NCBI GenBank assembly: GCA_021799875.1 | Contig: JAJYZP010000011.1 | Coordinates: 1-43,767, forward strand | Origin: Actinomycetes bacterium | GTDB taxonomy: Bacteria; Actinomycetota; Acidimicrobiia; Acidimicrobiales; Acidimicrobiaceae | Length of the DNA stretch: 43,767 bases | Direction: 5' to 3' | Shown here: positions 9,352-27,377 of the stretch, one piece after another | How the letters are laid out: the number at the start of each line of letters is the position of its first letter | Numbering within the stretch: the first letter of the stretch is position 1 | The notes under the pieces: generated by a model | Database searches by the model: none | What the model was told of the DNA's origin: nothing | What the model saw: only the letters and a program-made list of their open reading frames with translations | Program-made: the position numbers and the translations under genes

Positions 9352-12300
9352 GTGTTGGATTTAAACAACTTTGATCAACTGCGTATCGGACTAGCTACTG
9401 CAGGAGATATCCGTACCTGGTCGCATGGAGAGGTCAAGAAGCCCGAGACGATTAACTATCGAACGCTTCGTCCCGAGAAGGACGGACTCTTTTGTGAGAA
9501 GATCTTCGGCCCTACTCGGGATTGGGAGTGTTACTGCGGCAAGTACAAGAGGATTCGTTTTAAGGGTATTATCTGCGAGCGTTGTGGCGTCGAGGTAACT
9601 CGCTCGAAGGTGAGGCGAGAACGGATGGGCCATATCGAACTCGCAGCTCCAGTAGTTCATATCTGGTATTTGCGTGGAACGAGATCGTGGCTTGCGTATC
9701 TCCTCATGGGCACCTCGCCGAAGGACGAACTCAAGGCGAAGCAGCTTGAGAAGGTCATCTATTTCGCTGCCAATCTGGTCTCGTACGTCGACGTGGATCG
9801 TCGTCACGAAGATCTTCCTAATCTTGAAGCCGAGTATCTCATCGAGCGCAAGGAGCTCGAGGATCAGCGTGACATTCAGATCGAGCAGAGAATGCAGGCC
9901 TTCGAAGCCGAGGTGGCCGAACTCGAGGCAAATGGCACAAAGGAATCCGATATCAAGGCGCGCCAGCGAATCTTTGATAAGGAGATATCGGTCTTTCGCG
10001 ATCGGTTAAACAGTCGTATTGAACTCCTCAGACGTGCTTTTGACGAGTTTCGCGACCTTCACGCCCGGATGATTATCGAAGATGAGCTTCTTTGGCGTCA
10101 GCTCAAAGATCGCTACGGCGAGTACTTTGAAGGAGGCATGGGTGCCGAGGCCATTGCGCGACTCATTGAGCGAATCGATCTTGACGAGGAAGAAGTCAAG
10201 CTTCGCGAGATGATCGAGCCTGTCGAGGCAAAGCGACCACTCTCCGCACAACGTCGCCAGAAGGCTATCAAGCGACTCAAGATCGTGTCCGCCTTTAACT
10301 CTCGGGACGAGAACGGTCAGCGTGTTAACGATCCGCGTGCGATGATCTTGGACCTTGTTCCAGTCATTCCACCGGATCTTCGACCGATGGTGCAGCTCGA
10401 CGGCGGTCGATTCGCCACCTCTGACCTGAACGATCTCTATCGGCGTGTGATCAACCGTAATAACCGTCTCAAGCGACTGTTGGATCTCGGAGCTCCTGAG
10501 ATCATCGTCAATAACGAAAAGCGAATGCTCCAAGAGGCGGTCGACGCTCTCTTCGATAATGGTCGGCGTGGCCGTCCAGTTTCTGGGCCTGGAAACCGAC
10601 CGTTGAAGAGCCTCTCTGACATGCTGAAGGGCAAGCAGGGTCGATTCCGCCAGAATCTTTTGGGGAAGCGCGTGGACTACTCCGGACGATCGGTGATCGT
10701 CGTAGGACCAAACCTCAAGCTTCATCAATGTGGTCTTCCGAAGCAGATGGCTCTTGAGCTGTTCAAGCCGTTTGTGATGAAGAAGTTAGTCGACCTCGAC
10801 TATGCACAGAACATCAAGTCAGCGAAGCGAATGGTGGAACGTCGGCGACCACAGGTCTGGGAGGTTCTCGACTCGGTGATCAAGGAGCATCCAGTTCTTC
10901 TGAATCGTGCTCCGACACTGCACCGACTCGGCATCCAGGCCTTTGAACCGGTCTTGGTTGAAGGTAAGGCCATTCAGATTCATCCGCTCGTCTGCACTGC
11001 GTTTAACGCTGACTTCGACGGTGACCAGATGGCAGTGCATCTCCCGCTCTCGCCGGAAGCGCAGGCGGAAGCTCGGATTCTCATGCTCTCAGCCAATAAT
11101 ATTTTGTCTCCGGCTACCGGCCGACCAATCACTGTTCCGACTCAGGACATGGTTTTTGGTATCTACTACCTGACGATGGCCGTTGATGGTGAGCCCGGCG
11201 AGGGCCGTACGTTTCGGCATCTTTACGAGGTCGAGCAGGCCTATGAGAATGGTGAAGTCGGGCTTCATACGAAGATCCATCTTCGACGTGAGACCGGTGT
11301 CGACGACGATGGTTTGGCGATCTACGAGGAGATCGATACAACCGTCGGTCGTGTGATCTTCAATACGGCGCTTCCTGAGGGATTTCGATTCGTCAACGAG
11401 CTGGTTGGCAAGAGAGCGCTTCCGATTAGCGCCATCATTGAGGAGATCGCCAATCACTATCGTAAGAGCGAGGCGCAGGAGTCGCTCGATAAGATCAAGG
11501 CGCTCGGTTTTCGTTACGCCTCTCAAAGTGGGTTGACGATCTCGATCGCTGACGTCTCTACGCCTGCCTCAAAGGGTGAGATCTTGGAACGCCATGAGCG
11601 TGAGGCGGAGAAGGCAGAGCAGCAATTCAAGCGTGGAATCATCACTGATGATGAGCGGAAGCAGAAAGAGATCGAGATCTGGACCTCTGCGAACTCTGAG
11701 GTCGGCCGCGCTATGGATACGATGTTGGCGTCTGAGGCGTTCAACCCGATCAACATGATGGTCGATTCAGGTGCTCGTGGAAATGCTCAGCAGGTTCGTC
11801 AGATATCTGGCATGAAGGGTCTGGTGTCGAACCCCCGTGGTGAGATGATTCCTCGACCTATCGTTTCCTCGTTCCGAGAGGGTCTGAGCGTCTTGGAGTA
11901 CTTTATCTCCACTCACGGCGCACGGAAAGGCCTGGCGGATACGGCGTTGCGTACAGCGGACTCTGGCTATCTGACTCGTCGGTTGGTTGACGTCTCCCAG
12001 GAGATGATCGTTCGAGAGCACGATTGCGAGACGTCACGAGGAATTTGGCTCGAGGATATCGTTCCGGATCAAGCTGGTCGACGATCCTATCTTGAAACTC
12101 GGGCCTATGGGCGTGTTCTCTCCGAGGGCGTTGAGCTTTCCGATGGCACCGTTATGGAGGCAGGAACCCTCCTCACCGATGAACTTGTGGGCGTTCTCCG
12201 GGATGACCCTGCGGTAAATCGGGTGAGGGTGCGTTCGGTGCTGACTTGCGATACCGAGCACGGCGTTTGCTCTATGTGCTACGGTCAGAGTCTCGCTGGA

Positions 12301-13347
12301 CCGGGTTTTATTGAACTCGGCGAAGCCATCGGCGTTGTTGCGGCCCAATCAATCGGTGAGCCAGGAACACAGCTGACCATGCGTACCTTCCACCAAGGTG
12401 GTATTGCGGGACAAGACATTACCCACGGACTTCCTCGAGTCGTGGAGTTGTTCGAAGCCCGGACGCCAAAGGGAGCTGCGATCCTCTCTCATATAGCTGG
12501 AGTCGTCCGTGTTGACGAGGAAGAGGCGGGTCGTCGGGTAACGGTCGTAGGAAACGATGGTACCGAAGAGTCGTACTACCTCTCGCTGCGAGTACATCTC
12601 GAGGTTGCGGACGGTCAAGAGGTTGAGGCAGGCGATGCTCTTGTCGAGGGCCCGAAAGATCCGAAGCAGTTGCTTGAGATTAAAGGCGTGCGAGAGACGC
12701 AGCAGTACATCGTGGAAGAGGTTCAGAAGGTCTATCGTGACCAAGGTGTTCCGATCCACGATAAGCATATTGAGCTCATCGTGCGGCAGATGCTGCGCAG
12801 GGTAACGGTTGCAGAGCCGGGAGACTCCGCGTTTCTTCCGGGTGAACGTGTTGATACCCGGCGCTATGCGGATGTCAACCGTGAACTTCGGGCTCGTGGC
12901 CTACGCTCCTCGGAGGGCCGCCCTGAGTTGATGGGTATTACGAAGGCGTCGCTCGCCACGGAGTCCTGGCTATCGGCCGCTTCGTTCCAAGAGACGACCA
13001 GGGTGCTGACCGAGGCTGCTATCGAAGGAAAGTCCGACGGGCTCATGGGACTCAAGGAGAACATTATTATTGGCAAGCTCATCCCTGCCGGTACGGGTAT
13101 GAAGGAGTACCGATCGTTCAACGTCGTGGCTCCCGATGCTAAGCCGCTCTCCTTTTGGAGCTCTCAGGAGTATGAGGAGTACAACGGCTTCGGTCACGAC
13201 AGTTCCTACGGAGGATATTCGTTCGACCCTTCCATTCCCGAGTCCGAGATCGCTGATGATGAGGATTTTCTGCTTGGAGTTGCCGAAGAGGCGGAACCTG
13301 TCGTTGACGACTCGCCTGGTGATGAGGCGATTGCCAGCGAAGGTTAG
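9352..13347 (+). CDS. rpoC: DNA-directed RNA polymerase beta' subunit
   Basis: The catalytic beta' subunit is 1331 residues. The N-terminal zinc site is C60, C62, C75 and C78, in CYCGKYK and CERCG. The active-site magnesium motif NADFDGDQM lies at 552-560 (D554, D556, D558). The second zinc site is visible in [13 protein letters not shown]. The trigger-loop region and the [19 protein letters not shown] helix are intact. The start is GTG directly after the rpoB TAA, implying translational coupling. The C-terminus ends in an acidic tail. No inteins or insertions were seen. Confidence 0.98.
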
Positions 13348-13364
13348 TAGGTAGTTGAGGGTTG

Positions 13365-13392
13365 ACGGGAGTGTGCAGGAGCATGCTCCCGT
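13365..13392 (+). terminator. Hairpin between rpoC and rpsL, no T tract
   Basis: ACGGGAGTGTGC (13365-13376) and GCATGCTCCCGT (13381-13392) pair over 12 bp (two G-T wobbles) around AGGA. No T run follows, so it does not meet the intrinsic-terminator pattern. It may be a processing or stability element, or mark a factor-dependent end of the rpoBC transcript before the str operon. Confidence 0.5.
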
Positions 13393-13476
13393 AGCGGTAG
13401 TATGTAATTTCGGTTAAGTGAGCCTTGCATTGGTGGGGCCACCATCTGTTCAACAATTTTCCAGGAGAGGATGAGC

Positions 13477-13848
13477 GTGCCCACGATTGCTCAGCTAGTG
13501 CGCAAGGGACGTGAGACCAAAAGGTCGAAGACGAAGACACCCGCGCTGAAGGGTTCACCGCAGCGTCGCGGTGTCTGCACGAGGGTGTACACAACCACCC
13601 CTAAGAAGCCGAACTCTGCACTTCGCAAAGTAGCGCGTGTGCGCTTAAGTTCAGGTGTCGAGATCACTGCGTATATTCCAGGAGTAGGACACAATCTCCA
13701 AGAACACTCCATCGTGCTTGTTCGAGGCGGTCGAGTCAAGGATCTTCCTGGTGTTCGATACAAGATTATTAGAGGAACGCTTGACACAGCAGGCGTCAAG
13801 AATCGTAAGCAAGCTCGTAGTCGCTACGGCGCCAAGAAGGAGAAATAG
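13477..13848 (+). CDS. rpsL: 30S ribosomal protein S12
   Basis: S12 sits at the decoding centre and contributes to tRNA selection. It is the classical streptomycin-resistance locus. The 123 residues start [11 protein letters not shown] and contain [16 protein letters not shown] and [12 protein letters not shown]. The GTG at 13477 is chosen over the ATG at 13471, because S12 proteins almost universally begin MPTI and because AGGAGAGG (13463-13470) abuts the ATG but is well spaced from the GTG. rpsG starts 3 bases after the stop. Confidence 0.96.
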
Positions 13849-13851
13849 TCG

Positions 13852-14322
13852 ATGCCACGCAAGGGCCCAGTCGAGCGTCGTGAGCTCGCTCCCGATCCGA
13901 TCTATCACTCAGTCTTAGTGACTCAGTTCATCAACAAGATCTTGACACGCGGGAAGAAGACTCTCGCGCAGGGCATCGTGTATGGAGCGATGGACGAGAT
14001 CCGAGAGCGCACCGGTAGTGATCCACTAACTGTGCTGAAGCGCGCAGTCGATAACACGAAGCCAGAGCTCGAGGTTCGATCCCGTCGTGTCGGAGGTTCG
14101 ACCTACCAAGTTCCGATCGAGGTAAAGTCCCGACGGTCAATGACACTATCCATTCGTTGGATCGTGAGCTACTCCCGCAATCGTCGTGAGCGAACGATGG
14201 TGCTTCGCCTCGCAAACGAGATTCTCGATGCGTCGTCAGGTATTGGCGCCTCTGTGAAGCGTAAGGACGATCTTCACAAGATGGCGGAGTCGAATAGGGC
14301 TTTCGCGCACTATCGCTGGTAA
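13852..14322 (+). CDS. rpsG: 30S ribosomal protein S7
   Basis: S7 nucleates folding of the 16S 3' major domain and lines the E site. It is 156 residues, the standard length. It starts [16 protein letters not shown] and includes KFINKI-type helix [25 protein letters not shown] and the C-terminal FAHYRW. In E. coli S7 represses the str operon; whether it does so here is unknown. A 10-bp hairpin lies just downstream, before fusA. Confidence 0.97.
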
Positions 14323-14336
14323 AGAGAGTTTCGGTT

Positions 14337-14370
14337 CGCCGTGGTTGGAGCGCTTGTTCTAACCACGGCG
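14337..14370 (+). terminator. Hairpin between rpsG and fusA, no T tract
   Basis: CGCCGTGGTT (14337-14346) and AACCACGGCG (14361-14370) form a perfect 10-bp stem. The 14-base loop can shorten by three more inner pairs. The following sequence is not T-rich, so full intrinsic termination is doubtful. In E. coli the S7 target lies between rpsL and rpsG, not here. Confidence 0.45.
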
Positions 14371-14458
14371 CCCTTATGTGGTCGGAAATTTGATGTGGTG
14401 TTCTCGGAGTCCAAGAGTGGCTTCGAGATGGTGACTTAAAGACGAGGATGACGGTTCA

Positions 14459-16546
14459 ATGGTGACGAAGCGGGAGTATCCCCTAGAAAGGATACGCAAT
14501 ATCGGTATTATGGCGCACATCGACGCCGGTAAAACGACGACCACCGAGCGTATCTTGTACTACACGGGTAAGAACTACAAGATCGGTGAAGTGCACGAAG
14601 GTGCAGCGACGATGGACTGGATGGCGCAAGAGCAAGAGCGCGGTATCACCATTACCTCGGCGGCGACTACCTGCTTCTGGAAGGACCACCGTATCAATAT
14701 CATCGATACTCCTGGGCACGTTGACTTCACAGTTGAAGTCGAGCGATCCTTGCGGGTGCTCGACGGTGCGGTTGCGGTCTTTGACGCAGTGGCTGGGGTA
14801 GAGCCGCAGACGGAAACGGTGTGGCGCCAAGCTAACAAGTATCACGTTCCTCGTATGTGCTTCGTCAACAAGATGGATCGAGTTGGGGCCGATTTTACGC
14901 GGTGTGTCGAGATGATTAAGGATCGGCTCGACGCTGTTCCGGCAGTGATTCAACTTCCCATCGGGAGTGAAGGCGATTTCGTTGGGATCGTTGACCTCGT
15001 GGAGATGAATGCGAAGGTCTGGCACGAGGGCTTGGGTGAGGAGTATGCGACACAGGAGATCCCTGATGATCTCCGAGATGCTGCGGACGTGGCTCACCAG
15101 GAACTGATTGATGTTTTGTCGAACTTTGATGACGAGCTCATGGAGCGCTACATCGCAGAAGAGGAGATTACGGGCTCGTTGCTGAGAAGGGCGATTCGTA
15201 AGGCGACCTTGGCCGCCCAGATCGTCCCAACGCTCTGTGGTTCTGCCTTCAAGAACAAGGGCGTTCAGCCAATGCTCGATGCGGTGGTCGACTTTCTTCC
15301 TGCTCCGTCCGATCTACCTGATACCGAGGGAACATCGATGTCGGGCTCGGAGACGTTGACACGTGAGGCTTCCGATTCAGCACCATTTTCGGCGCTGGCC
15401 TTCAAGATCATGACGGATCCTTTTGTTGGAAAGTTGACCTACTTCCGGGTTTACTCTGGCTCCCTGGAAAAAGGAGCTACGATTTTGAACTCGACCAAGG
15501 ACAAGAAAGAGCGTCTTGGTCGGTTGCTTCTCATGCACGCGAATACGCGAGAAGATATCGACACCATCTATGCAGGAGATATTGTTGCCGCCGTCGGTTT
15601 GAAGAATACAACGACTGGGGACACTCTCTCGGCGGTGGATGCTCCGATCGTCTTGGAGGCTCTCGAGTTTCCTGAGCCTGTGATCCATGTTGCGGTTGAG
15701 CCAAAGACGAAGGCCGATCAAGACAAGATGGGGCGTGCCCTCTACGCCCTTTCCGAGGAGGATCCGACCTTCCGAGTCCGCTCTGATGAGGAGACCGGTC
15801 AAACCGTTATCTCGGGTATGGGCGAACTCCACCTGGAGGTTCTCGTTGATCGAATGCTGCGGGAGTTCAAAGTTGACGCAAACGTCGGCAAGCCGCAGGT
15901 AGCGTATCGCGAGACGATACGAAAGTCTGTGGAGAAGATCGAAGAACGATACGTCCGTCAGTCGGGTGGTCGTGGACAGTATGGACACGTAGTGATCAAT
16001 CTGGAGCCCTCAGGCCCAGGAGGTGGATACGAGTTCGTTGACAAGATCTCTGGTGGAGTGATTCCACGAGAGTACATTCCAGCCGTCGATGCTGGAATTC
16101 AAGAAGCTTTGCAGTCAGGTGTGTTGGCCGGATACCCAACGGTAGACGTTCGTGTCACGTTGGTCTTCGGTTCATATCACGAGGTCGACTCGTCCGAGAT
16201 GGCGTTTAAGATCGCCGGATCGATGGCTGTGAAGAAGGCTGCGCGAGCGGCGAGCCCTGTGCTCTTGGAGCCGATTATGTCGGTTTCGGTGGTTACACCT
16301 GAGGAGTACATGGGTGATGTCATTGGCGATCTCTCCTCAAGGCGAGGTCGGGTCGAGGGAATGGATCAGGTCGGCAATAGCCAAGTCATACGAGCGCAAG
16401 TTCCGCTCTCGGAGATGTTTGGTTACGCAACTGATCTACGTTCTCGGACTCAAGGTCGTGCAACGTACTCGATGCAATTTGGGTCGTATCAAGAAGTACC
16501 TGATTCGATCGCAAAAGATATCGTAGCGCGTGTTCGTGGTGAGTAA
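14459..16546 (+). CDS. fusA: Translation elongation factor G
   Basis: EF-G is the GTPase that drives translocation and, with RRF, ribosome recycling. The 695 residues carry G1 [14 protein letters not shown]2 [11 protein letters not shown]3 DTPGHVDF and G4 NKMDRVGAD. Domain III-V landmarks include [23 protein letters not shown] and the C-terminal [12 protein letters not shown]. Length and motifs fit canonical FusA rather than the EF-G2 paralogue. The ATG follows GACGAGGATGACGG. It lies 136 bases from rpsG, with a hairpin in the gap, and 67 bases before tuf. Confidence 0.98.
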
Positions 16547-16613
16547 ACTATTTCAGCCTGTAGTAGTCCAGTAGCGTCGTAGGGCGCAGTTAGGTTAACG
16601 GAGCAGTAAAGAC

Positions 16614-17801
16614 ATGGCCAAGCAAAAGTTCGAGCGGAGTAAGCCTCACTTGAACATCGGGACCATGGGTCATATTGACCATGGTAAGACCACTCTCACT
16701 GCGGCGATCACGAAGACGCTCGCCGAGAGGAACCCCAATGTCAAGTTCAAGCCTTTCGATCAGATCGATAATGCGCCCGAAGAGCGCGCACGAGGTATAA
16801 CCATCTCGATCTCTCACGTGGAGTATGAGACGGAGAACCGTCACTACGCGCACGTTGATATGCCGGGGCACGCTGACTATATCAAGAACATGATTACGGG
16901 TGCGGCGCAGGTTGACGGCGCAATCCTCGTCGTCAGCGCAACGGACGGTCCTATGCCTCAGACGCGTGAGCACGTACTGCTCGCACGCCAGGTTGGCGTT
17001 CCTTACATCGTCGTTGCGTTGAACAAGTCGGACATGGTCGATGACGAAGAGCTTTTGGACCTCGTCGAGCTGGAGGTTCGTGAGCTCCTCAGTGAGTACG
17101 ATTTCCCGGGTGACGATACGCCGATCGTTCGAGTGTCTGCGTTGAAGGCTCTTGAGGGCGATGCAACTTGGGCTGAGAAGATCATCGAGCTCATGGCAGC
17201 GGTTGACGAGTATGTTCCGGTTCCGGAGCGTCCGATTGACCGTCCATTCTTGATGCCGCTTGAAGACGTGTTCACGATCCAAGGTCGTGGTACCGTTGTG
17301 ACCGGTAAGGTCGAGCAAGGTATCATCAAGGTGGGCGAAGAGATCGAGATTGTTGGTCTGCGTGACACGCAGAAGACCGTCTGCACCGGCGTGCAGATGT
17401 TTAACAAGCTCCTCGATGAAGGTCGTGCGGGAGACAATATCGGAGTTCTCCTTCGAGGAACGAAGAAGACCGACGTGGAGCGGGGCCAGGTGCTTTGTAA
17501 GCCCGGTTCGATTACTCCGCATACTGTCTTTGAGGCGAATGTCTACGTTCTCTCGAAAGAAGAAGGTGGGCGACACAAGCCTTTCTTCAACCAGTATCGG
17601 CCGCAGTTCTACTTCCGGACAACGGACGTAACCGGTAGCATTACGCTTCCTGAAGGCACCGAGATGGTTATGCCGGGAGACAATATCACCATGACAGTTG
17701 AGCTGCAGAAGCCGATTGCTATGGATGAAGGTCTCCGCTTCGCTATTCGCGAGGGTGGCCGAACCGTCGGTGCTGGAGCAGTTACCAAGGTTATCAAGTA
17801 A
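16614..17801 (+). CDS. tuf: Translation elongation factor Tu
   Basis: EF-Tu delivers aminoacyl-tRNA to the A site as a GTP ternary complex. The 395 residues carry [14 protein letters not shown], the switch I segment [28 protein letters not shown] and SALKALEGD. Domains 2 and 3 end with [11 protein letters not shown]. Small departures from the E. coli sequence are DMPGH for DCPGH and ISISHVEY for INTSHVEY. Upstream AACGGAG gives a fair ribosome binding site. A 13-bp hairpin follows before rpsJ. Confidence 0.98.
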
Positions 17802-17814
17802 GGATCGTTGTTGT

Positions 17815-17844
17815 ATTGGGGCTCGGCGTCTGCTGGGCCCCAAT
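17815..17844 (+). terminator. Strong hairpin between tuf and rpsJ, no T tract
   Basis: ATTGGGGCTCGGC (17815-17827) pairs with GCTGGGCCCCAAT (17832-17844) around GTCT, giving 13 bp with two G-T wobbles. No T run follows and rpsJ begins 23 bases downstream. It could be an RNase site, a 3' stabiliser of the abundant tuf message, or a partial terminator that lowers rpsJ relative to tuf. Confidence 0.55.
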
Positions 17845-17867
17845 CGTAGTAAAGGTGATGTACGTAC

Positions 17868-18194
17868 ATGGCTGATGTAGGGAAACAGAAGATTAGGATC
17901 CGGCTCAAGGCATTTGACCATGAGATCATCGAGACCTCTACGAAGAAGATCGTCGATACGGTGGTCCGCACCCAGGCGAAGGTCGTTGGTCCAGTGCCGT
18001 TGCCGACGGAGATCCATCGATACACCGTAATTCGCTCTCCGCACAAGCACAAGGACTCGCGAGAGCACTTCGAGATGAGAATTCACAAGCGAATGCTCGA
18101 TATTGTCGACCACTCTCCGAAGACGGTCGATTCGCTGCAGCGGTTAGATCTCCCTGCCGGAGTCGATATCGAGATAAAAATTCAATCTGTTTAA
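17868..18194 (+). CDS. rpsJ: 30S ribosomal protein S10
   Basis: S10 is a head protein of the small subunit and the NusE partner of NusB/NusG in antitermination. It is 108 residues with [24 protein letters not shown] and the long loop [19 protein letters not shown]. Its place is notable: it lies 66 bases after tuf, as the last gene of the str operon, and is separated from rplC by about 190 bases holding a terminator. The weakest point is the start: ATG after AAAGGTG is well spaced and accepted. Confidence 0.97.
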
Positions 18195-18236
18195 GGTATG
18201 TTCGGCTCCTGGTGCGCAGTTGCGTAGTGAGAGCCC

Positions 18237-18340
18237 TATACTTCTATAGGTTCTAAATGAGGTCCGTTTGAGCCCCGATTGCGGGGGACCTTGCGGCAAG
18301 AAGTTTTCGCTCCGCCTCAGTCTGCATGGCGGAGCATTTT
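18237..18340 (+). promoter_or_regulatory. rplC leader: tandem hairpins ending in an intrinsic terminator
   Basis: A -10-like TATACT (18237-18242) is followed by a bulged hairpin (GGTCC 18261-18265 with GGACC 18286-18290, inner CCCG/CGGG around ATTG). Next comes a small CTTG-CGG-CAAG hairpin. Last is GCTCCGCC (18309-18316) with GGCGGAGC (18328-18335) and the tail ATTTT. The layout resembles an attenuator leader for the S10 operon. In E. coli L4 controls the operon from such a leader, but upstream of S10. A control role is inferred; the final terminator hairpin is seen. Confidence 0.5.
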
Positions 18341-18384
18341 GTGTTCGGCGGTTAACGCTACGTAGTTGAATGAGGGCTGTACTG

Positions 18385-19026
18385 ATGACGGCGAGAGCAA
18401 TTGTTGGCGAGAAGGTCGGGATGACCCATGTCTGGGATGAGCAAAATCGCTTCATTCCGGTGACGGTTATCCGCGTGACGACCATGAGGGTTCTCAAGGC
18501 TAAGACGACAGAGAGTGACGGCTATAGCGCTCTGCAGGTCGCGTATGGCTCGAAGAAGCGGTCGAAGCTGACCAAGCCAGAGCTTGGTCAATTTGATAAG
18601 GCCGGCATTGAGCCGGGTCGTGGAATCATCGAGTTTCGTTTAGATGATGTCTCGAGTTTTAACGTCGGTGATGAGCTGAAGGCGGACGTCTTGGCTGCCG
18701 GCGAGTTCGTGGATGTGACTGCAATCTCGAAGGGACACGGTTTCTCGGGAGGTATGAAGCGCCATAACTTCAAAGGGCAAGGTGGCGGTCACGGTAACCA
18801 CAAGCATCACCGTGCTCCTGGCTCGATTGGGGCCTGTGCTACACCTGGCCGCGTCTTCAAAGGTACGAAGATGGCCGGTCAATACGGTGGCGTCAAGGTG
18901 ACAACGATGAACCTCGAAGTGGTTCAGGCTGACGCTGAGCGCGAGCTTGTTCTCGTGAAGGGCTCGGTTCCAGGACCCAAGGGTGGTCAAGTTGTGATTC
19001 GAAGCGCAGTTAAAGGTGGTAAATAG
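18385..19026 (+). CDS. rplC: 50S ribosomal protein L3
   Basis: L3 is an early assembly protein whose loop reaches the peptidyl transferase centre. The 213 residues include IVGEKVGMTHVW at the N-terminus and the central GQGGGHGNHKHHRAPGSIG with GTKMAGQYGG. The open frame begins at ATG 18370, but GAGGG at 18372-18376 is well placed for the ATG at 18385, which also matches family N-termini better. The last base of its TAG is the first base of the rplD GTG. Confidence 0.95.
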   Translation: MTARAIVGEKVGMTHVWDEQNRFIPVTVIRVTTMRVLKAKTTESDGYSALQVAYGSKKRSKLTKPELGQFDKAGIEPGRGIIEFRLDDVSSFNVGDELKADVLAAGEFVDVTAISKGHGFSGGMKRHNFKGQGGGHGNHKHHRAPGSIGACATPGRVFKGTKMAGQYGGVKVTTMNLEVVQADAERELVLVKGSVPGPKGGQVVIRSAVKGGK

Positions 19027-19778
19027 TGGCTCGATTTGCTAGAGCAGAGGAGTTCACCTCCAGGACGGCTCCTGTCGTCGATTTCACGGGCGCTCGCCTG
19101 CGGGAGGTGGATCTCGAACCGTCGGTCTTTGGCCGTCGACCGAATGTGGCCTTGATTCATCAGGTCGTGGTCGGTCAGCTTGCTGGGGTGCGGGCCGGTA
19201 CGCAGTCAACCAAAACTCGATCCGAGGTTCGCGGTGGCGGTGCGAAGCCGTATCGTCAGAAGGGGACTGGTCGTGCCCGGCAAGGCTCAACCAACGCGCC
19301 GCAGTTCTCTGGTGGCGGCGTTGCCCTAGGGCCAAAGCCTCGAAGCTACGCGCAGCGTACACCGAAAAAGATGATCGCTCAAGCTCTCTACGGTAGCCTC
19401 TCCGATCGAGCTGAGGCAGGTGCCGTCTTCGTACTCGGGGGCTTCGATCTCACCACCCCGTCGACTAAGGCGGCGCAGCGTTTTATCGACGCCATGAAGT
19501 TCGAGTCCTCTGTGCTCGTTGTAGTTGAGCCAGGGGACGAGACGCTGGCCAAGAGTCTACGGAACCTGCCGAACGTCGAAGTTGCGTTCCCTTCCAACTT
19601 GAGTGCCTATCTCGTTCTGGTGAACGATGCAATCGTTTTCACTGAAGGTTCACTACCTCGCAGTCAGGCGGGAGAATCACTCGTCGTGGAAGGCCGTACG
19701 GTTGCGCCGGTCGACGGCAACGTTGTAGAGGCTGCGACGACGGAGGAGACTGAGGTTGTAGAGGAGGGTCTGGACTGA
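19026..19778 (+). CDS. rplD: 50S ribosomal protein L4, acidic C-terminal tail
   Basis: L4 lines the exit tunnel with its basic loop and in some bacteria autoregulates the S10 operon. The loop region is seen as TRSEVRGGGAKPYRQKGTGRA. The globular domain ends near residue 210 (LVLVNDAIVFTEGSL). A roughly 35-residue acidic, probably disordered tail follows (ATTEETEVVEEGLD at the end). The start is GTG, overlapping the rplC stop by one base. The stop overlaps the rplW ATG. Confidence 0.96.
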   Translation: MARFARAEEFTSRTAPVVDFTGARLREVDLEPSVFGRRPNVALIHQVVVGQLAGVRAGTQSTKTRSEVRGGGAKPYRQKGTGRARQGSTNAPQFSGGGVALGPKPRSYAQRTPKKMIAQALYGSLSDRAEAGAVFVLGGFDLTTPSTKAAQRFIDAMKFESSVLVVVEPGDETLAKSLRNLPNVEVAFPSNLSAYLVLVNDAIVFTEGSLPRSQAGESLVVEGRTVAPVDGNVVEAATTEETEVVEEGLD

Positions 19779-20074
19779 TGTCGGGCGCGAATGCATATGA
19801 GGTAATCCGTCGGCCGCTCGTTTCAGAGAAGAGCTACAAGGCAATGGACGAGGGTGTCTACTCCTTTATTGTCGACCCTCGGGCTACGAAGGTCGATATT
19901 CGATTTGCAGTCGAGAAGCTCTTTGACGTGCACGTGGTGGATGTCAATACTCTGAACCGCAAGGGAAAGAGGAAGCGCAATCGGCGAAGTGGTGTCTGGA
20001 CTAACGGACATAACGAGAAGCATGCCATGGTCCGCCTCCGCGCAGGTGAGTCCATAGAGATCTTTGAGAAGTAG
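19778..20074 (+). CDS. rplW: 50S ribosomal protein L23
   Basis: L23 sits at the tunnel exit and is the docking site for trigger factor and SRP. The 98 residues start with [17 protein letters not shown] and contain [20 protein letters not shown] and the basic [12 protein letters not shown] loop. It overlaps rplD by one base (TGATG) and precedes rplB by 8 bases. Length and motifs are ordinary. Confidence 0.96.
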
Positions 20075-20082
20075 GAGTTAGC

Positions 20083-20919
20083 GTGGCAGTTAGAAAACGA
20101 AAGCCGACAAGCGCAGGACGGCGATTCCAGAGCGTCTCGGACTTCTCAGATGTTACGGCTACTCGTCCAGAGAAGTCGCTTCTTGAGCCTGCGAGCTCGT
20201 CAGGTGGTCGTAACGCGTATGGGCGCAAGACAGCACGTCATCGCGGTGGCGGGCACAAGCGCCAGTACCGTGTGATCGACTTTAAGCGTAATAAGGACGA
20301 GGTTCCAGCGAAGGTCGCCACGATCGAGTACGATCCCAATCGCAACGCTCGGATCGCGCTTCTGCACTACCTGGACGGTGAGAAGCGCTATATCTTGGCT
20401 CCGGCCAAGCTCTCGGTCGGAGACATGGTGGAGTCTGGGCCCAAGGCCGACATCAAGACGGGTAACGCTCTGCCGTTGAGAAATATCCCCGTTGGTACGA
20501 CGGTCCACAATGTTGAGATGCGACCGGGACAGGGTGGCAAGATAGCTCGAAGTGCAGGGATGTCTGTTCAGCTCGTTGCTCGAGAAGGCGACTATGCAAC
20601 GCTGCGCCTTCCTTCGACCGAAATGAGGCGAGTACCGATCGATTGTCGAGCCTCGATCGGAGAGGTAGGAAACTCGGAGTTCGAACTGCTCTCGGTTGGC
20701 AAGGCTGGACGTTCTCGTTGGAAGGGAGTTCGACCACAGACACGAGGCGTCGCTATGAACCCGGTCGACCATCCGCTCGGTGGTGGTGAAGGCAAGACCT
20801 CAGGTGGTCGGCATCCAGTGTCGCCATGGGGTAAGCCCGAGGGCCGAACTCGCTCGAAGCACAAGGATTCAGATCGTTTGATAATTCGTCGTCGGAGAGC
20901 TCGCGGAGCTCGGAGGTAG
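20083..20919 (+). CDS. rplB: 50S ribosomal protein L2
   Basis: L2 is essential for subunit association and peptidyl transferase assembly. The 278 residues contain [37 protein letters not shown] and the C-terminal [15 protein letters not shown], which includes the invariant histidine near the catalytic centre. The C-terminus is very basic ([10 protein letters not shown]). The start is GTG after AGGAG. Confidence 0.98.
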
Positions 20920-20927
20920 GTCGGCCC

Positions 20928-21209
20928 ATGCCGCGTAGTTTGAAAAAAGGCCCCTTCGTGGATGATCACCTTCTCAAGAAGGTCGATACGCAGAACGAGA
21001 GTGGTGACAAGAAGGTCATTAAGACGTGGTCGAGGCGTTCGACCATCATCCCCGATATGGTTGGGCACACGATTGCGGTGCACGATGGTCGCAAACATGT
21101 TCCGGTCTATCTCACGGAGTCCATGGTGGGCCATAAGTTAGGTGAGTTCGCACCGACGAGAACCTTCCGATACCATGCCGGACAAGAGCGTGCCGGGAGG
21201 AGAAGGTAA
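20928..21209 (+). CDS. rpsS: 30S ribosomal protein S19
   Basis: S19 lies in the 30S head and contacts S13 and the A-site finger. The 93 residues start [19 protein letters not shown] and contain [22 protein letters not shown] and [19 protein letters not shown] lies in the end of rplB as its ribosome binding site. The TAA overlaps the rplV ATG by one base. Confidence 0.97.
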
Positions 21210-21880
21210 TGGCTGTGGCTGAGCTTGAATCGGTTCCTCAAGGACGAGCCGTACTTCGGGGCTATCAAATGTCTGCCTCAAAGGTACGAGAGGTACTCGA
21301 TCTGATCCGCGGGAAGTCGGCGGTCGCAGCGATGGAGACCCTGTCGCTTGTTGAGCGTGGCGCGGCAGAACCCGTTGCAAAGCTGCTCCGCTCTGCGGTT
21401 GCAAACGCTGCTCATCTTCACGGTCTTGCGCCAGATGAGGTCTATGTTGCCGTCACGTTTGCTGATGAGGGTACGACGCTGAAGCGCTTCCGACCTCGAG
21501 CTCGCGGGCGGGCTGGCCGGATTCGCAAACGCACGAGTCACATCACGATCATCGTGGAGCGTCTGCCAGAGGCTCGCTTAGCAGTGATACGTGCGAAGCG
21601 TCGGGGTGAAGAGGCAAACCGTCGGGCCAGACGGGTGCGAAGCTCGCGCGGTGAAAGTGTATCGACTGCGGCTGAAGCGGCCTTAGAAGCTAAGGATCGA
21701 GACGAAAGCGCTGTGCAAACTCCGTCTAACGATATCGCTATCGAAGATACCGAAGTGTCGGTCGAGCCTGAAGTGATCGAGATGGATTCTGAGGAAGTGG
21801 CTGCCACTGACGTCTCTGGCGGGGGTGTCGAGGAAGTGGCTGACGTCGTTACCGAGGCCGAAGAGGAAGAGAAGAACTAA
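21209..21880 (+). CDS. rplV: 50S ribosomal protein L22 with long acidic C-terminal extension
   Basis: L22 forms part of the exit-tunnel constriction. The core (about 1-130) shows [20 protein letters not shown] and the hairpin [21 protein letters not shown] (split here as [10 protein letters not shown] then [11 protein letters not shown]). After it a roughly 90-residue tail rich in Glu, Asp, Ser, Val and Ala extends the protein to 223 residues, about twice the usual bacterial length of around 110-130. The tail is likely disordered. The stop overlaps the rpsC ATG by one base, so the extension is genuine in this sequence rather than a frame artefact. Confidence 0.95.
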
Positions 21881-22812
21881 TGGGTCAAAAAATCAATCCT
21901 TACGGTTTCCGTCTCGGAGTCACTACCGATTGGAAATCTCGGTGGTTCGATGAGAAAAACTACAAAAAGTGGGTAATCGAGGACTACGCAATTCGATCGT
22001 TCTTGATGAACGAGTTGGAGACCGCAGCGGTCTCTCGGGTTGAGATCGAGCGTACGCGAGATCGAGTCAAGGTCGATATCCATACCGCTCGTCCAGGTAT
22101 CGTGATCGGGAAAAAGGGTTCAGAAGCTGATCGGTTGCGCAAGGCGCTGGTGGAGATCACGCACAATCAGAAGGTGCAGATCAACATCGAAGAGATCAAG
22201 CAACCCGAGCTCGATGCCGCTCTCGTCGCCCAAGGTATCGCCGATCAGTTAGCTCGTCGTGTGAGCTTTCGACGGGCTATGAAGCGTGCTCTGCAGATGG
22301 TAGAGAAGGCAGGCGGCCAAGGCGTCACGGTTATGTGCTCCGGTCGACTTGGCGGCGCTGAGATGGCTCGTAAAGAGTCCTATCGTGAGGGCCGTGTACC
22401 TCGTCACACACTACGTGCCGATATTGACTACGGCTTTCGTGAGGCGCGGACTACCTTCGGTCGCATCGGCGTGAAGGTCTGGATCTATAAGGGTGACATC
22501 CTGCCCTACAAGGTTGTGCCCGGTGCTGATGAGCGTGGAGTGAAACCCGCAGCTCCGGCGGCCAATGCAGCTCGGAGAGTGATTACCGCTGGTGGTGGTC
22601 GGCGACGTGCTGAAGGTACGACGTCAGCTTCCGAGGTTGAGAATCCTTCAACTGAGGAGACCGTAGTAGCAGGTTTGGTTCCGAACGCTTCGGTCGTCAA
22701 CGCCCCAGAGGGGGACGACTTGGAGCGATTGCTCGCTGAAGAGGAAGAGATTGAGCGTCGTACCCGGGAGTCCGGACATGAGGCTCCTCACTTTAAAAAG
22801 GAGGTTGACTGA
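21880..22812 (+). CDS. rpsC: 30S ribosomal protein S3 with long C-terminal tail
   Basis: S3 surrounds the mRNA entry pore and takes part in helicase activity with S4 and S5. The type-2 KH domain is visible as [20 protein letters not shown] (GKKG loop), and the C-domain includes [20 protein letters not shown] and [12 protein letters not shown]. The conserved part ends near residue 215. About 95 further residues, partly acidic, bring it to 310, longer than the roughly 210-240 of many bacteria though long S3 tails are known in actinobacteria. The rplP ribosome binding site lies inside its last codons. Confidence 0.95.
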
Positions 22813-22813
22813 G

Positions 22814-23248
22814 ATGTTGATGCCTCGTAAGGTACGGTACCGGAAGACGCAGCGAGGCCGCATGAGCGGCATGTCTCGATCCGGGAACGATATTCATTTT
22901 GGCGATTTCGCTATTCAGGCGCTGGAGCCCGGCTGGATCTCAGCTCGGCAGATTGAAGCGGCTCGTCGAGCGATGACTCGTCACATCCGCCGTGGCGGTA
23001 AAGTCTGGATCCGGATCTTTCCTGACAAGCCAGTGACGAAGAAGCCGGCCGAGACCCGTATGGGTTCGGGTAAGGGTAACCCTGAGTTCTGGGTAGCTGT
23101 GGTGAAGCCAGGGCGAATCATGTTTGAGCTCGCTGGGGTCTCTGAGGAGCTCGCTGCTGAAGCGATGGCGAGGGCCATCCAGAAGCTGCCGATTCGGGCA
23201 AAGTTTATTGTACGTGAGGATGCTGTAGCTACGGAGGTTGCGAAGTGA
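22814..23248 (+). CDS. rplP: 50S ribosomal protein L16
   Basis: L16 organises the A-site side of the peptidyl transferase centre. It is 144 residues: [19 protein letters not shown] at the N-terminus and [18 protein letters not shown] in the centre. The frame is open upstream to 22751, but the ATG at 22814 has AAAAAGGAGG just upstream and gives the invariant MLMPR start. Its TGA overlaps the rpmC GTG by 4 bases. Confidence 0.97.
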
Positions 23249-23463
23249 CCAAGGCAGTAGAGCTTCGTACTCTGGCCGATCATGAACTTGCGGATCGTCT
23301 CGAGGAGAGTCGGCGGGAGCTGTTCAACCTGCGCTTCCAGTTAGCTACCTCTCAGTCGACGAACACGGCGAGACTCAAGACCCTGAAGAAGGAGATCGCA
23401 AGGGTTTTGGCGATCCAGACGGAGCGCGCGTATGACGTGCTCATCAGTGAGGTGGATAAGTAG
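23245..23463 (+). CDS. rpmC: 50S ribosomal protein L29
   Basis: L29 is a small two-helix protein beside L23 at the tunnel exit. The 72 residues show [27 protein letters not shown] and then the [19 protein letters not shown] helix. The start is a GTG in a GTGA overlap with rplP, with GGAGG upstream. rpsQ follows with no gap. Confidence 0.95.
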
Positions 23464-23832
23464 ATGTCAGAGAATGTTGATGTGGTCTCGGAAGAGTCTG
23501 AGGTAGCTCAGGCCGAAGAGACGGTAGCGGAGCCATCTCAGGTCGGTTCGTCGGTGCTGGATGAGGGTAACGACGAGAAGGCTCGGGCATCTCGCAAGTT
23601 TCGTGATGGTGTGGTCGTCTCGACCGCTATGGATAAAACGATCGTCGTTGCGATTACTGAGCGTGTTCGACATCGTCGCTACCAGCGGACGGTGCAGCGG
23701 ACCAAGAAGCTCTATGTCGATGACCAAGAAGGATCGGCAAAGTTGGGAGACTCGGTTCGCGTCGTAGAGACTCGTCCGTTGTCGAAGTTGAAGCGGTGGC
23801 GTCTGTTGGAAGTGTTGGAGCGTGCGCGATGA
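23464..23832 (+). CDS. rpsQ: 30S ribosomal protein S17 with acidic N-terminal extension
   Basis: S17 binds 16S helices 7 and 11 in early assembly. The core starts near residue 43 ([21 protein letters not shown]) and contains [19 protein letters not shown] and [18 protein letters not shown] 40-residue acidic N-terminal extension precedes it, giving 122 residues against about 85 in E. coli. No better start lies at the core boundary, and the ATG directly abuts the rpmC stop. The end overlaps rplN by 4 bases. Confidence 0.94.
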
Positions 23833-24197
23833 TACAGCAGGAATCGCGACTTCGTGTCGCTGACAACTCTGGAGCTAAAGAGGTCTTGTGCATTAAGGTG
23901 CTCGGCGGGTCGCGGCGACGTTACGCAAGCATCGGTGACGTCTTTGTAGCTACGGTCAAAGATGCTATCCCCGGTGCCGCCGTTAAAAAAGGCGACGTCG
24001 TGAAGTGTGTTGTAGTCCGGGTGAAGAAGGAGAAGCGTCGTCCAGACGGTAGCTATATCCGCTTCGATGAGAACGCTGCGGTGCTGATCAATGATTCACT
24101 GCAGCCCCGAGGCACTCGTATCTTTGGCCCTGTCGGGCGAGAGCTGCGAGATAAAAAGTTCATGAGGATTATCTCCTTAGCACCGGAGGTGTTGTAA
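23829..24197 (+). CDS. rplN: 50S ribosomal protein L14
   Basis: L14 lies at the subunit interface and forms bridge B8. The 122 residues start [18 protein letters not shown], as in nearly all L14 proteins, and end [16 protein letters not shown]-like ([16 protein letters not shown]). The ATG at 23829 is chosen over the upstream open frame because of this start, the ATGA overlap with rpsQ and GGAG just upstream. Its TAA overlaps the rplX ATG. Confidence 0.97.
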
Positions 24198-24502
24198 TGC
24201 ACGTTCGTAAAGGTGACAAGGTTCGGGTGATCGCGGGTAAAGATCGTGGTCATGAGGGCGAGGTCGTTCGGGTTATCCCTGGACGAGACAGGGTTGTAGT
24301 AGCAGGAGCTAACGTAGCGAAGCGTCACACGAAGGCGACCTCTGCGACGACGCAGGGTGGCATTATCGACAAGGCGATGCCGTTGCATGTATCGAACGTG
24401 GCTCTCGTGTGCTCGAAGTGTGGAGTGACACGAGCCGGGGCGCGATTCGATAGTGACGGTCTGAAGGTACGGACCTGTGCGAAGTGTGGTGGAGATCTAT
24501 GA
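24197..24502 (+). CDS. rplX: 50S ribosomal protein L24, zinc-ribbon type
   Basis: L24 initiates 50S assembly and sits at the tunnel exit. The KOW motif is at the N-terminus ([20 protein letters not shown]). The C-terminus has two CxxC pairs, CSKC and CAKC, forming the zinc knuckle seen in many Gram-positive and thermophilic L24 proteins. It is 101 residues. It overlaps rplN by one base and rplE by four. Confidence 0.96.
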
Positions 24503-25071
24503 GTGAGGCGACAAAGGTGCGGCCGCGCCTAAAGGTGAAGTATGACACCGAGGTGAAGGCAGCGCTGAAAGAATCGTTGGGGCTATCCAACGTCATGCAG
24601 GTTCCAACGCTGGAGAAGATCGTGATCAATGTTGGCGTTGGGCGTGCCACGCAACAGCAGTCTTTGATAGAGAATACGGTTCGAGACATCGAGATCATCG
24701 CAGGCCAGAAGCCAGTGGTTACTCGTGCTCGTAAAGCTATCGCAGGATTCAAGCTCCGTGCCGGTAATCCTATTGGAGTACGAGTAACTCTGCGAGGCGA
24801 TCGCATGTGGGAGTTTTTCGATCGCCTGGTTGCTGTAGCGATTCCTAGGATCCGAGACTTCCGAGGTCTGAACCCGAAGTCGTTCGATGGTCACGGGAAC
24901 TATACCTTCGGCGTGACTGAGCAGCTGATCTTCCCGGAGATCGACTACGACAAGGTCGATGCGACCCGTGGTATGGATATTACGATCGTGACCACTGCAC
25001 GGTCAAACGAACATGGTCGAGCGCTTCTTAATGCCTTCGGCTTTCCATTCAAGAGAGAAGGGGCACAGTAG
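24499..25071 (+). CDS. rplE: 50S ribosomal protein L5
   Basis: L5 binds 5S rRNA in the central protuberance. The 190 residues include [22 protein letters not shown]-type [22 protein letters not shown], and [10 protein letters not shown] with the closing [10 protein letters not shown]. The ATG at 24499 is preferred over the upstream frame opening because it forms an ATGA overlap with rplX and follows GGTGGAG. Confidence 0.97.
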
Positions 25072-25074
25072 AAG

Positions 25075-25260
25075 ATGGCAAAGAAGGCTCTAATTGCCAA
25101 AGCGCAGCGGACCCCGAAGTTTCGCGTCAGGGCGTATACGCGTTGCCAACGATGTGGCAGGCCCCACGCAGTGTTTCGTAAGTTTGGACTATGTCGTATC
25201 TGTCTTCGGGTGATGGCTCACGCTGGTGAGCTTCCAGGCGTGACCAAGGCGAGCTGGTAG
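25075..25260 (+). CDS. rpsZ: 30S ribosomal protein S14 type Z (zinc form)
   Basis: This 61-residue short S14 has the C-x2-C-x12-C-x2-C zinc motif (CQRCGRP, then CRICLR). It begins with [24 protein letters not shown] and ends in PGVTKASW. The zinc type in the spc operon is typical of Gram-positive and actinobacterial genomes. Actinobacteria often carry a second, zinc-free copy elsewhere that Zur controls, but none is in this window. Confidence 0.97.
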
Positions 25261-25273
25261 GGAGTTGAAGTAG

Positions 25274-25678
25274 ATGAGCATGACTGATCCGATTGCGGAC
25301 ATGCTGACCCGTATTCGAAACGCGAATACAGCGAAGCACGATGTCGTCAAGATGCCAGGTTCGAAGGTAAAGGTCAATCTGGCCAAGGTACTCGAGCGAG
25401 AGGGATACATCGCGGGTTACGAGCTAGGGGAGGCCGAGGGCCGACCCGGTACTTTGTTGACCCTTACCCTCAAGTACTCCGGGGACCGTGAGCGCACGAT
25501 TTCGGGCATTCAGAGAGTTTCGAAGCCAGGTCTTCGCGTGTATTCGAGAGCGGAGAGCATCCCGCGTGTTCTCGGAGGGCTCGGAGTGGCGGTCTTGTCG
25601 ACCTCGAAGGGCCTGATGACAGACCGTGAAGCGCGTAAGGCAAATATTGGTGGCGAAGTCCTGTGCTACGTGTGGTGA
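25274..25678 (+). CDS. rpsH: 30S ribosomal protein S8
   Basis: S8 binds 16S helix 21 and in E. coli represses the spc operon. It is 134 residues: [14 protein letters not shown] at the N-terminus and [27 protein letters not shown] at the end ([11 protein letters not shown] is the signature). Two in-frame ATGs at 25274 and 25280 are both possible; the second gives the commoner MTDPIADM start, the first has the better Shine-Dalgarno spacing. Confidence 0.96.
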
Positions 25679-25699
25679 TCCGAGAGAAGGAGAGAGACT

Positions 25700-26242
25700 G
25701 TGTCTCGTATTGGTAAGGTCCCCGTAGTCGTACCTGCCGGTGTCGACGTAGAAATCAAAGATGGTAGGCACGTAGCGGTCAAGGGTCCGAAGGGCTCTCT
25801 GTCGCGTTCTCTGCCTGGCTCGATTACTGTTCGCCGTGACGGAGAGTCCCTAGTTGTGGAACGTCCAGATGACTCGAGGGAATCTAAGGCGCTGCACGGT
25901 CTGTGTCGGACTCTGGTCTCCAACATGGTGGTAGGTGTTACCGAGGGGTACGTTCGTAACCTTGATATTGTGGGGGTCGGCTACCGGGCTGCCGCAAAGG
26001 CTTCGACACAGCTCGAGCTAGCGCTTGGGTTCTCGCATCCGGTCGTCGTCGACGCTCCGAGTGGAATTGCGTTCGAGACACCGACGCCGAATCGTATCTC
26101 GATCAACGGGATCGATAAAGAGCTCGTGGGTCAAGTTGCTGCGAATATTAGGAAGTTGAAGAAGCCCGAGCCTTACAAGGGTAAGGGCATCCGCTACGAA
26201 GGCGAGAAGGTCCTTCGTAAAGTCGGCAAAGCCGGTAAGTAG
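25700..26242 (+). CDS. rplF: 50S ribosomal protein L6
   Basis: L6 lies near the factor-binding site beside the sarcin-ricin loop. The 180 residues have the duplicated L6 fold, beginning [18 protein letters not shown], with the C-terminal signature [16 protein letters not shown]. The start is GTG after GAAGGAGAGAG. It sits 21 bases after rpsH. Confidence 0.97.
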
Positions 26243-26269
26243 CCGAGAGAGATTCTGCAGGAGTTACGT

Positions 26270-26635
26270 ATGTCCGATTCATCCCATATCTCTGTTAAGC
26301 GGAGACAAAAGCGTCACACGCGAGTTCGAAAGTATGTCGTCGGTAAGACGAGCCGTCCGCGGCTCTGCGTCTTCCGCTCGAACCGCCACATCGTCGCTCA
26401 GATCATCGATGATTCAACAGGCCGCACCCTTGCGGCCGCGTCATCGCTTGAAGCTGCGATTCGTGGAGAGGGTACTGGAAATACTGCCTCGGCACAACGC
26501 GTTGGGGCTTTGCTCGCTGAGCGGGCTAAGGCCTCGGGAGTCGAGGTTGTTGTTTTTGATCGTGGCGGATTCCGTTACCACGGTCGAGTTGCTGCCTTGG
26601 CTGAGGCCGCACGAGCGGGAGGACTTGAGTTCTAA
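26270..26635 (+). CDS. rplR: 50S ribosomal protein L18
   Basis: L18 brings 5S rRNA into the central protuberance with L5. The 121 residues include [28 protein letters not shown] (basic N-terminus), [17 protein letters not shown] and [20 protein letters not shown]. The ATG follows CAGGAG. The TAA overlaps the rpsE ATG by one base. Confidence 0.97.
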
Positions 26636-27183
26636 TGGCAGAGCAACAGTATGAAGAGCGGACGATCAAGGTAAATCGTGTCGCGAAGGTAGTTAAGGGT
26701 GGTCGGCGTTTCTCGTTCACCGCTCTCATGGTGGTTGGAGATGGCCAGGGCAAGGTTGGCCTGGGTTATGGTAAGGCCAAAGAGGCGGGCCTTGCGGTTC
26801 AAAAAGGTATCGAAGAGGCCAAGAAGGCGATGTTCGATGTACCCCTGGCTGGCTCAACGATTACTCACCCGACCCTTGGTGAGTCCGGGGCAGGACGAGT
26901 TCTGCTCAAGCCAGCAGCTCCTGGTACTGGTGTGATTGCCGGTGGTGCGGCTCGGGCGATTTTGGAGCTAGCGGGCATCAAAGATATCGTCGGAAAGTCG
27001 CTCGGCTCGTCGAACGGTATTAATATCGCTCATGCGACGATCGCAGGCTTGAAGTCACTGAAGCGTCCCGATCAGATAGCTGCGCTGAGGGGTAAGGCTG
27101 AAGATGAAGTCACTCCGGCTGGAGTGTTGCGGGCCTATCACGAGTCCCAGAAGCATGTCGAGAGCGGATCGAGGGAACGATGA
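26635..27183 (+). CDS. rpsE: 30S ribosomal protein S5
   Basis: S5 acts in decoding fidelity and mRNA helicase function. The 182 residues include the S5 double-stranded RNA-binding domain [20 protein letters not shown], the loop [15 protein letters not shown] and the C-terminal [16 protein letters not shown]. It overlaps rplR by one base and rpmD by four. Confidence 0.97.
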
Positions 27184-27377
27184 GTGGTGAAAAGACTCTT
27201 TGTGTGACTCAGATTGGGTCTGATATCGGTACGAAGCCGAAGCATCGCGGGACCATTCGAGCACTTGGTCTCCATGGTGTTGGAAGTTCGAATACGCTTC
27301 CGGATCGTCCAGAGATTCGGGGCATGATCGCTCGTGTGCCTCACCTGGTGAGCGTCGAAGAGTTGGACGGAGAGTAG
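27180..27377 (+). CDS. rpmD: 50S ribosomal protein L30
   Basis: This short protein of 65 residues carries the L30 pattern: [29 protein letters not shown] and then [17 protein letters not shown]. It begins in an ATGA overlap with rpsE and ends 4 bases before rplO. The three genes rpsE-rpmD-rplO are the standard order. Confidence 0.95.

Follow-up and report, generated by a model that had tools for sequence, protein, structure and literature searches.

Background

In E. coli, L4 controls the S10 operon through a leader that carries an attenuator hairpin and upstream L4-binding elements, according to the passages of PMC10931766 on this system. An L4 ribosomal protein leader (r-leader) has been predicted for rplC, rplD, rplW and rplB in the Archaeoglobi (Eckert and Weinberg 2020), and is rated as borderline by its authors (PMC7247131, Table 1). 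The relevant parts of the same survey count 35 earlier and 20 new r-leaders and treat mimicry as not required of an r-leader. Such leaders are an established form of regulation. An rpsJ motif of Peptostreptococcaceae is mentioned in a passage of PMC11109978. A bacterial leader that starts at rplC is absent from Table 1 of PMC7247131 and goes without mention in the passages of PMC11109978, PMC6429828 and PMC2965389. No paper on leader control of the S10 operon in actinobacteria was found in the open-licence literature, and the supplements of surveys may hold an unnamed raw prediction.

The window analyzed here (the whole stretch of DNA, a contig of 43,767 bases from a 2.47-Mb draft genome) contains NCBIfam profile matches to rpsL, rpsG, fusA, tuf and rpsJ and, across a gap, to rplC, rplD, rplW, rplB and rpsS. 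When the window was scanned with Rfam 15, only three tRNAs were found, all of them elsewhere than the gap. The gap alone gave five hits and 12 related loci gave one, all far below the gathering threshold. Judged from sequence comparison, the gap is best read as holding a new r-leader that serves the rplC-rplD operon. We consider it probable that it consists of a promoter and a cis-acting r-leader for the operon that begins rplC-rplD-rplW-rplB, with S10 outside, and that it works by the mechanism proposed below.

Results and discussion

Organization of the rpsJ-rplC gap

An earlier note on this DNA had described a gap of about 190 bases between rpsJ and rplC, with a -10-like TATACT and an 8-bp stem with a T-rich tail about 45 bases before rplC. 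The gap was confirmed as positions 18195-18384 (190 nt), both flanking genes being identified by NCBIfam, and TATACT lies at 18237-18242. The 8-bp stem (GCTCCGCC, 18309-18316, with GGCGGAGC, 18328-18335) is followed by ATTTTGTG, and stem and tail stand about 45 nt 5' of the rplC start codon. Candidates for the bulged and small hairpins of the same note are 18260-18297 and the stretch around TATACT. The features are as follows.

17868..18194, + strand: rpsJ (S10), NCBIfam TIGR01049 (rpsJ_bact); last gene 5' of the leader, outside the proposed control
18204..18235, + strand: possible irregular hairpin, GGCTC (18204-18208) with GAGCC (18231-18235); seen in the sequence, just 5' of the -10 box and outside the conserved alignment
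18237..18242, + strand: -10-like hexamer TATACT, putative leader promoter from the excess of TANNNT in relatives
18260..18345, + strand: conserved structured leader RNA, matching models R1 and R2
18262..18297, + strand: P1, with G18262-C18297, unpaired U18263, CCGU (18264-18267) with GCGG (18293-18296), two U.U mismatches and G18270-C18290
18271..18289, + strand: internal loop (A18271 and G18272 / G18287, A18288 and C18289) and P2, the latter CCCC (18273-18276) with GGGG (18283-18286) and loop 18277-18282
18309..18335, + strand: P3 hairpin, GCUCCGCC / GGCGGAGC; letters almost invariant in the alignments; the terminator stem of the earlier note
18336..18343, + strand: U-rich tail ATTTTGTG directly 3' of P3; reads with P3 as an intrinsic terminator
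18385..19026, + strand: rplC (L3), NCBIfam TIGR03625; first gene 3' of the leader
19026..19778, + strand: rplD (L4), NCBIfam TIGR03953; second gene 3' of the leader

The rplC ATG is at 18385, with a further in-frame ATG at 18370. The window leader scored 48.1 bits with R1 (E 5.7e-10), its row being part of the R1 training alignment. Its P1 has just four contiguous pairs, with the two U.U mismatches above them. By eye, the conserved core runs from A-N-G-U through the first arm of a stem, N-N-G-C-C, a loop and G-G-N-A-C-N to the second arm, which is followed by C-A, a short linker and GCUCCG...CGGAGC. In many relatives, CAAYCG often stands directly 5' of this core and the linker that follows P1 again holds CAACCGA, as a possible repeated recognition motif. 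The GU at the P1 base and the AC of the internal loop, both invariant, were also seen to be complementary.

Some observations were made on the neighbouring genes. A scan for gene-end stems listed a stem ending in GCCCCAAT between tuf and rpsJ (window 17802-17867), and this stem may give rpsJ some insulation from tuf as well. The L4 of the window scores under the cut-off of the NCBIfam family 'L4, sunset domain variant', and L4 is much longer in some relatives (about 331 aa in L153 and 309 aa in L193).

Single-sequence evidence for the gap was weak. When positions 9000-28000 were scanned, neither promoter-like sites (7 vs. 8.3 ± 3.2) nor terminator-like sites (10 vs. 13.8 ± 3.3) were in excess; TATACT was not listed, and of P3 only the inner part was. 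Folding of the whole gap gave z = -2.04, and the likely transcript (18249-18384) folded no better than its shuffles (z = 0.09). P1 was absent from both minimum-energy folds, and in that of the gap AGGUCC pairs with GGACCU around P2, in place of P1. This alternative pairing was rejected as a class-wide structure (38/50 cells in the window's family and 159/240 elsewhere, mainly of invariant letters, against 56/70 and 325/336 for P1 when counted on the alignment A1 described below), though it may form in the window's family. The region stands above chance because of the comparison with relatives, namely compensatory change, the constant position ahead of rplC and the TANNNT hexamer found 5' of the leader.

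Covariation in the leader

The structure was drawn on A1, a sequence-only MAFFT alignment that kept 58 of 97 cores after dereplication. Left out beforehand were L042, L043, L046, L057, L067 and L105, whose P3 matches were poor or doubtful, and also L021, L025, L031, L032, L050, L100 and L106, which yielded no P3 motif. The structure comprises 8 pairs in P1, 7 in P2 and 13 in P3. Double compensatory changes were observed in 20 of these 28 pairs (P1 8/8, P2 7/7 and P3 5/13), and 0/500 shuffles reached any of five measures, the contrast in this and all other shuffle controls being inflated by the relatedness of the sequences. Standard pairs occupied 92.5 % of 1528 cells, against 32-47 % when the partners were slid by 1-3 columns. 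P3 is mostly fixed in sequence and is thus supported more by conservation than by covariation. In the same alignment, P1 was weaker in the window's family (56/70 cells paired) than in the other rows (325/336).

Two further alignments were examined. The first (A4, MAFFT) was composed of 47 of 48 loci, mostly from other families, with one near duplicate dropped. When RNAalifold was applied to it with no structure given, the same three helices were obtained and 12/18 pairs were doubly changed, on loci that had been found with R1 and are thus not wholly independent. The second (A5) was limited to P1/P2 and included divergent family members (58 sequences hand-picked from 90 dereplicated, of 96). 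In this P1/P2-only alignment all 12 pairs were doubly changed, among them 8/8 in P1.

The presence of conserved structure in relatives bears on the earlier note, which had named its absence as a ground for refutation; on this count the note stands. The predicted secondary structure of the leader is backed by covariation, and P1/P2 is, from the alignments, its most informative part.

Another alignment (A3) took 88 of 91 sources, its cut-off being set so as to exclude antisense or partial matches. The internal-loop letters G, A and C were found in 88/88 rows. In a separate count of P1 and P2 cells, G.U was observed 70 times vs. 15 for A.C. Since G.U is far above A.C, the selected molecule is the rplC-sense RNA. 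The same figures weigh against the idea that the conserved stems are DNA operator sites, that is, inverted repeats for a transcription factor beside the promoter. P3 would suit such a role, being a near-perfect inverted repeat with nearly fixed letters. In P1/P2, however, the letters vary freely while pairing is kept, with the 70 to 15 excess of G.U over A.C; moreover, the loop has its invariant letters on one side only and the distance to the hexamer is variable, and we regard the operator explanation as barely credible.

Position before rplC and separation from rpsJ

In a class sample, R1 matched 124/296 genomes, and 120 of these 124 had a single match. Among the match places that were fetched, 39/40 sit 13-162 nt 5' of the rplC match; the exception (L161) is a weak second match. 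All of the 88 R2 source matches sit 7-196 nt before the rplC start.

Positions of rplC, rpsJ and R2 matches were taken from the same draw of 90 genomes that were at least 90 % complete, and distances were measured from match to match, not from stop to start. Of these, 83 were usable (six had no rplC match, and G094 was left out for a partial match at a contig end). The leader was found in 44/83 Acidimicrobiia genomes, always on the rplC strand and 15-164 nt 5' of the rplC match. In 42 of the 44, rpsJ was on the same contig and strand at a distance of 193-9428 nt, and the leader was between rpsJ and rplC in all 42; in the other two, the rpsJ match was on another contig (G120) or was not found (G171). 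When no leader was matched, rpsJ was within 63 nt of rplC, or overlapped it, in 34/39 genomes. Longer distances without a leader match were observed in G082 (110), G118 (136), G001 (185), G080 (216) and G163 (341). G001 does carry P1/P2 (R2 19.4 bits; E 1.3e-4 with R3, a P1/P2-only model), and nothing credible was found in G082, G118, G080 and G163 (110-341 nt).

Nineteen R1-negative genomes with rplC were also analyzed. Ten of them have a gap of at most 51 nt and lack the leader. The other nine have a long gap, or rpsJ lies off the stretch, and once R2 was applied to each locus by itself, the leader appeared before rplC in 8/9, with weak matches in three of these eight (E 0.01-0.5). At L187, with a 384-nt gap, no credible leader was found with R2 on the locus alone or with R3. 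Among the rplC loci from named records, rpsJ was 5' on the same stretch in 69/80 (gaps 140-2324 nt, four above 700) and absent from the fetched stretch in 11/80. A cultured organism that carries the leader is Ferrithrix thermotolerans DSM 19514 (locus L068), whose genus NCBI assigns to Acidimicrobiaceae, class Acidimicrobiia. In the window's family, rpsJ is directly 5' of rplC in 30/30 loci (the window's own counted) with a gap of 140-216 nt. As far as the sequences of this class are concerned, presence of the leader and the rpsJ-rplC split go together, and that S10 would lie outside the control of the leader is supported.

When one open reading frame per interval was analyzed in ten of 13 intervals, each of the ten genomes gave a different Pfam family for the gene that separates rpsJ from the leader. 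The split is thus old or recurrent, and the leader stayed with rplC. The genes were HipA, SDR, AI-2E transporter, carboxylesterase, PGA_cap, pentapeptide repeat, DUF2142, PIN, lipase and DUF2079 (loci L145, L146, L149, L153, L157, L158, L165, L167, L168 and L172), and the space between rpsJ and the leader appears to be an insertion hot spot inside a classic ribosomal cluster.

A separate trans-acting small RNA gene that stands before rplC by chance would account for an own promoter-like box and for a distance of up to 196 nt to rplC. It is highly improbable, as the strand and the downstream neighbour are constant in 44/44 genomes while the upstream neighbour changes.

In a tree of 67 L3 proteins (56 with the leader, 10 without and one unassigned), two changes of state were counted (1-3 over bootstraps) vs. 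9.5 when shuffled. One origin of the leader is possible on this tree. S10 is also the antitermination factor NusE. A wider scenario, which we offer tentatively and hold to be possible rather than probable, is that Acidimicrobiia gained the r-leader on one or a few occasions and that it assumed control of the L3-L4 operon from a place within the former S10 operon. This would have freed S10 from feedback and from its neighbours, so that rpsJ could drift up to 9.4 kb away. The P1/P2 loop would then be a new, non-mimicking binding solution for L4, or the element would be an L3 leader.

Promoter-like box

The TATACT of the window has counterparts in the relatives. Within 150 nt 5' of the leader, TANNNT was present in 87/87 relatives vs. 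44.4 ± 3.8 in dinucleotide shuffles, a contrast that relatedness inflates (87 of 88 rows were used, one having too little upstream DNA). Hexamers with at least 4 matches to TATAAT were found in 57 relatives vs. 28.9 ± 3.7, and those with at least 5 in 24 vs. 9.6 ± 2.6; exact TATAAT showed no excess (2 vs. 1.3 in the 87 relatives). The best hexamer was more than 100 nt 5' of the leader in 8/87 relatives, in some of them inside rpsJ, and thus not every hexamer is a promoter. In the window, transcription would start near 18249, and the leader would be transcribed together with rplC.

One group of related loci, L051, L064, L084 and L104 among them, has a GC-rich hairpin between the rpsJ stop and the promoter-like box, with a loop of the TTTGC type. 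It is possibly the end of the str transcript.

Spread outside the class

Across the phylum, R2 matched 33/396 genomes, of which 30 belong to Acidimicrobiia and three lie outside (E 4e-4 to 9e-4). The three out-of-class matches were rejected as copies, as none of the seven genes searched was found on the 2.5-4.2 kb stretches that hold them, and by eye they follow open reading frame ends like terminators. R3 matched 10/396 genomes of the phylum, all within the class and all at places already found with R1 or R2. A credible copy of the leader outside Acidimicrobiia was thus not found with R2 and R3 in the 396 genomes of the phylum, a result in which faint relatives could be missed because of the stricter filters of Infernal and because R3 misses most R2 leaders. 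Weak second leader-like matches (L161:3063-3139 and L205:2035-2120) were observed in two genomes of one genus (G103 and G095). L205 looks like a terminator that follows a tRNA-like 3' end, and at L161 a hairpin resembling a terminator separates two reading frames.

Off-target matches bear on the explanation in which P3 is merely a terminator and the rest a plain promoter, with no regulation. The P3 of the window does have a U-rich tail, and four of the five off-target model matches (L202-L205) look by eye like ordinary terminators, three following open reading frame ends and one a tRNA-like 3' end. We nevertheless consider this explanation very unlikely. P1/P2 covary strongly, the RNA stays with rplC though rpsJ may be kilobases off, and P3 is 3' of the promoter-like box, so that a terminator there would end the rplC transcript too.

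Proposed mechanism, output and ligand

Under the r-leader reading, transcription would start some 10 nt 5' of the leader. Under rRNA shortage, an operon protein in excess (most likely L4 by precedent, with L3, L23 and L2 also possible) would bind P1/P2, of which the invariant loop would form part of the binding domain, and binding would lower expression of the operon. P3 would most likely serve as the output, either by pausing transcription or as a weak terminator, with a canonical U-rich tail in the window's family. S10, encoded 5' of the promoter, would escape the feedback.

The earlier note had suggested a control point between rpsJ and rplC. That proposal gains from the conserved leader-type element, the promoter-like box before it, the position of S10 upstream and the class-wide association, and it loses generality at P3, a hairpin that is itself conserved throughout the class. 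The U-rich tail (at least 5 T of 8) was found in 7/58 rows, all from family f1, which is that of the window (7/10 there and 0/48 elsewhere). Attenuation at P3 may operate in the window, but is weakened as a general mechanism since none of the 48 rows outside the family has such a tail. The commoner tail after P3 is close to [GA]-U-Y-N-G-Y-G-U-G. In an underpowered test of whether P3-type tails mark ordinary terminators in these genomes, the tail motif was found in 0/42 gene-end stems and in 17/591 coding stems, which if anything speaks against it.

In the family members L021, L031, L186 and L188, P3 is replaced and P1/P2 are kept (the loss of P3 was judged partly by eye), which fits a sensor with an exchangeable output. 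Simple masking of the SD sequence was rejected, as the SD window pairs with P3 at a mean probability of 0.009 and with the whole core at 0.126 in 82 leaders. Given this low pairing and a spacer of 7-196 nt, we infer that a transcriptional output is likelier than SD masking.

Mimicry of 23S rRNA was suspected first, at the domain I site of L4, and was rejected as R2 and R3 searches gave nothing credible. The 23S sequences were complete for G001 and G150 and partial for G000, G043 and G044. With R2, the best matches (17.7 and 15.1 bits) lay in the flanks and the best sense-strand match inside 23S had 5.5 bits; with R3, the best sense-strand match inside had 12.9 bits (E 0.53). The absent mimic neither excludes nor supports L4, because mimicry is not required according to the relevant part of PMC7247131. 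When L4 C-termini of loci with and without the leader were compared by eye, no hint of the ligand was seen. By analogy, L4 is the favoured candidate ligand.

Metabolite sensors often recur before several operons. The leader might sense something other than an operon protein, such as NusA, a different trans factor or a small molecule, and so tune ribosome synthesis. An invariant loop would suit any ligand, and no rRNA mimic was found in the 23S searches. Against such a sensor, the element usually occurs as one copy per genome (120/124), before rplC, and precedent favours an r-protein, so that we consider it unlikely.

Comparison with known systems

Ribosomal feedback is classically illustrated by the S10 operon, and the leader gives a testable control point for much of Acidimicrobiia. 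Natural contrasts exist in the class (S10 is split off where the leader is present and attached where it is absent), and through these it can be tested directly whether S10 needs to be regulated together with the rest of the operon proteins. The leader also offers a new RNA for how r-proteins may recognise their messages without a visible copy of rRNA.

The actinobacterial r-leaders for L31 and L17 (PMC7247131, Table 1), compared through the Rfam scans, come from the same phylum and belong to other genes (rpmE and rplQ). The Firmicutes S10 r-leader, compared by its description in part of PMC7247131, concerns the same gene cluster in another phylum and is named for, or placed at, rpsJ. The Archaeoglobi L4 r-leader, also compared by its description in that survey, shares the operon genes and L4 as the predicted ligand, but is archaeal. 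The E. coli S10 leader, with L4 (uL4), is alike in being a structured leader of an operon with rplC-rplD-rplW-rplB, as described in the passages of PMC10931766. It precedes the whole S10 operon, S10 included, whereas the Acidimicrobiia element follows rpsJ (compared by description, with the Rfam scan as the only search). Finally, the E. coli leader is an attenuator of the terminator type, whereas in Acidimicrobiia a U-rich tail was seen only in the window's family among the 58 aligned rows.
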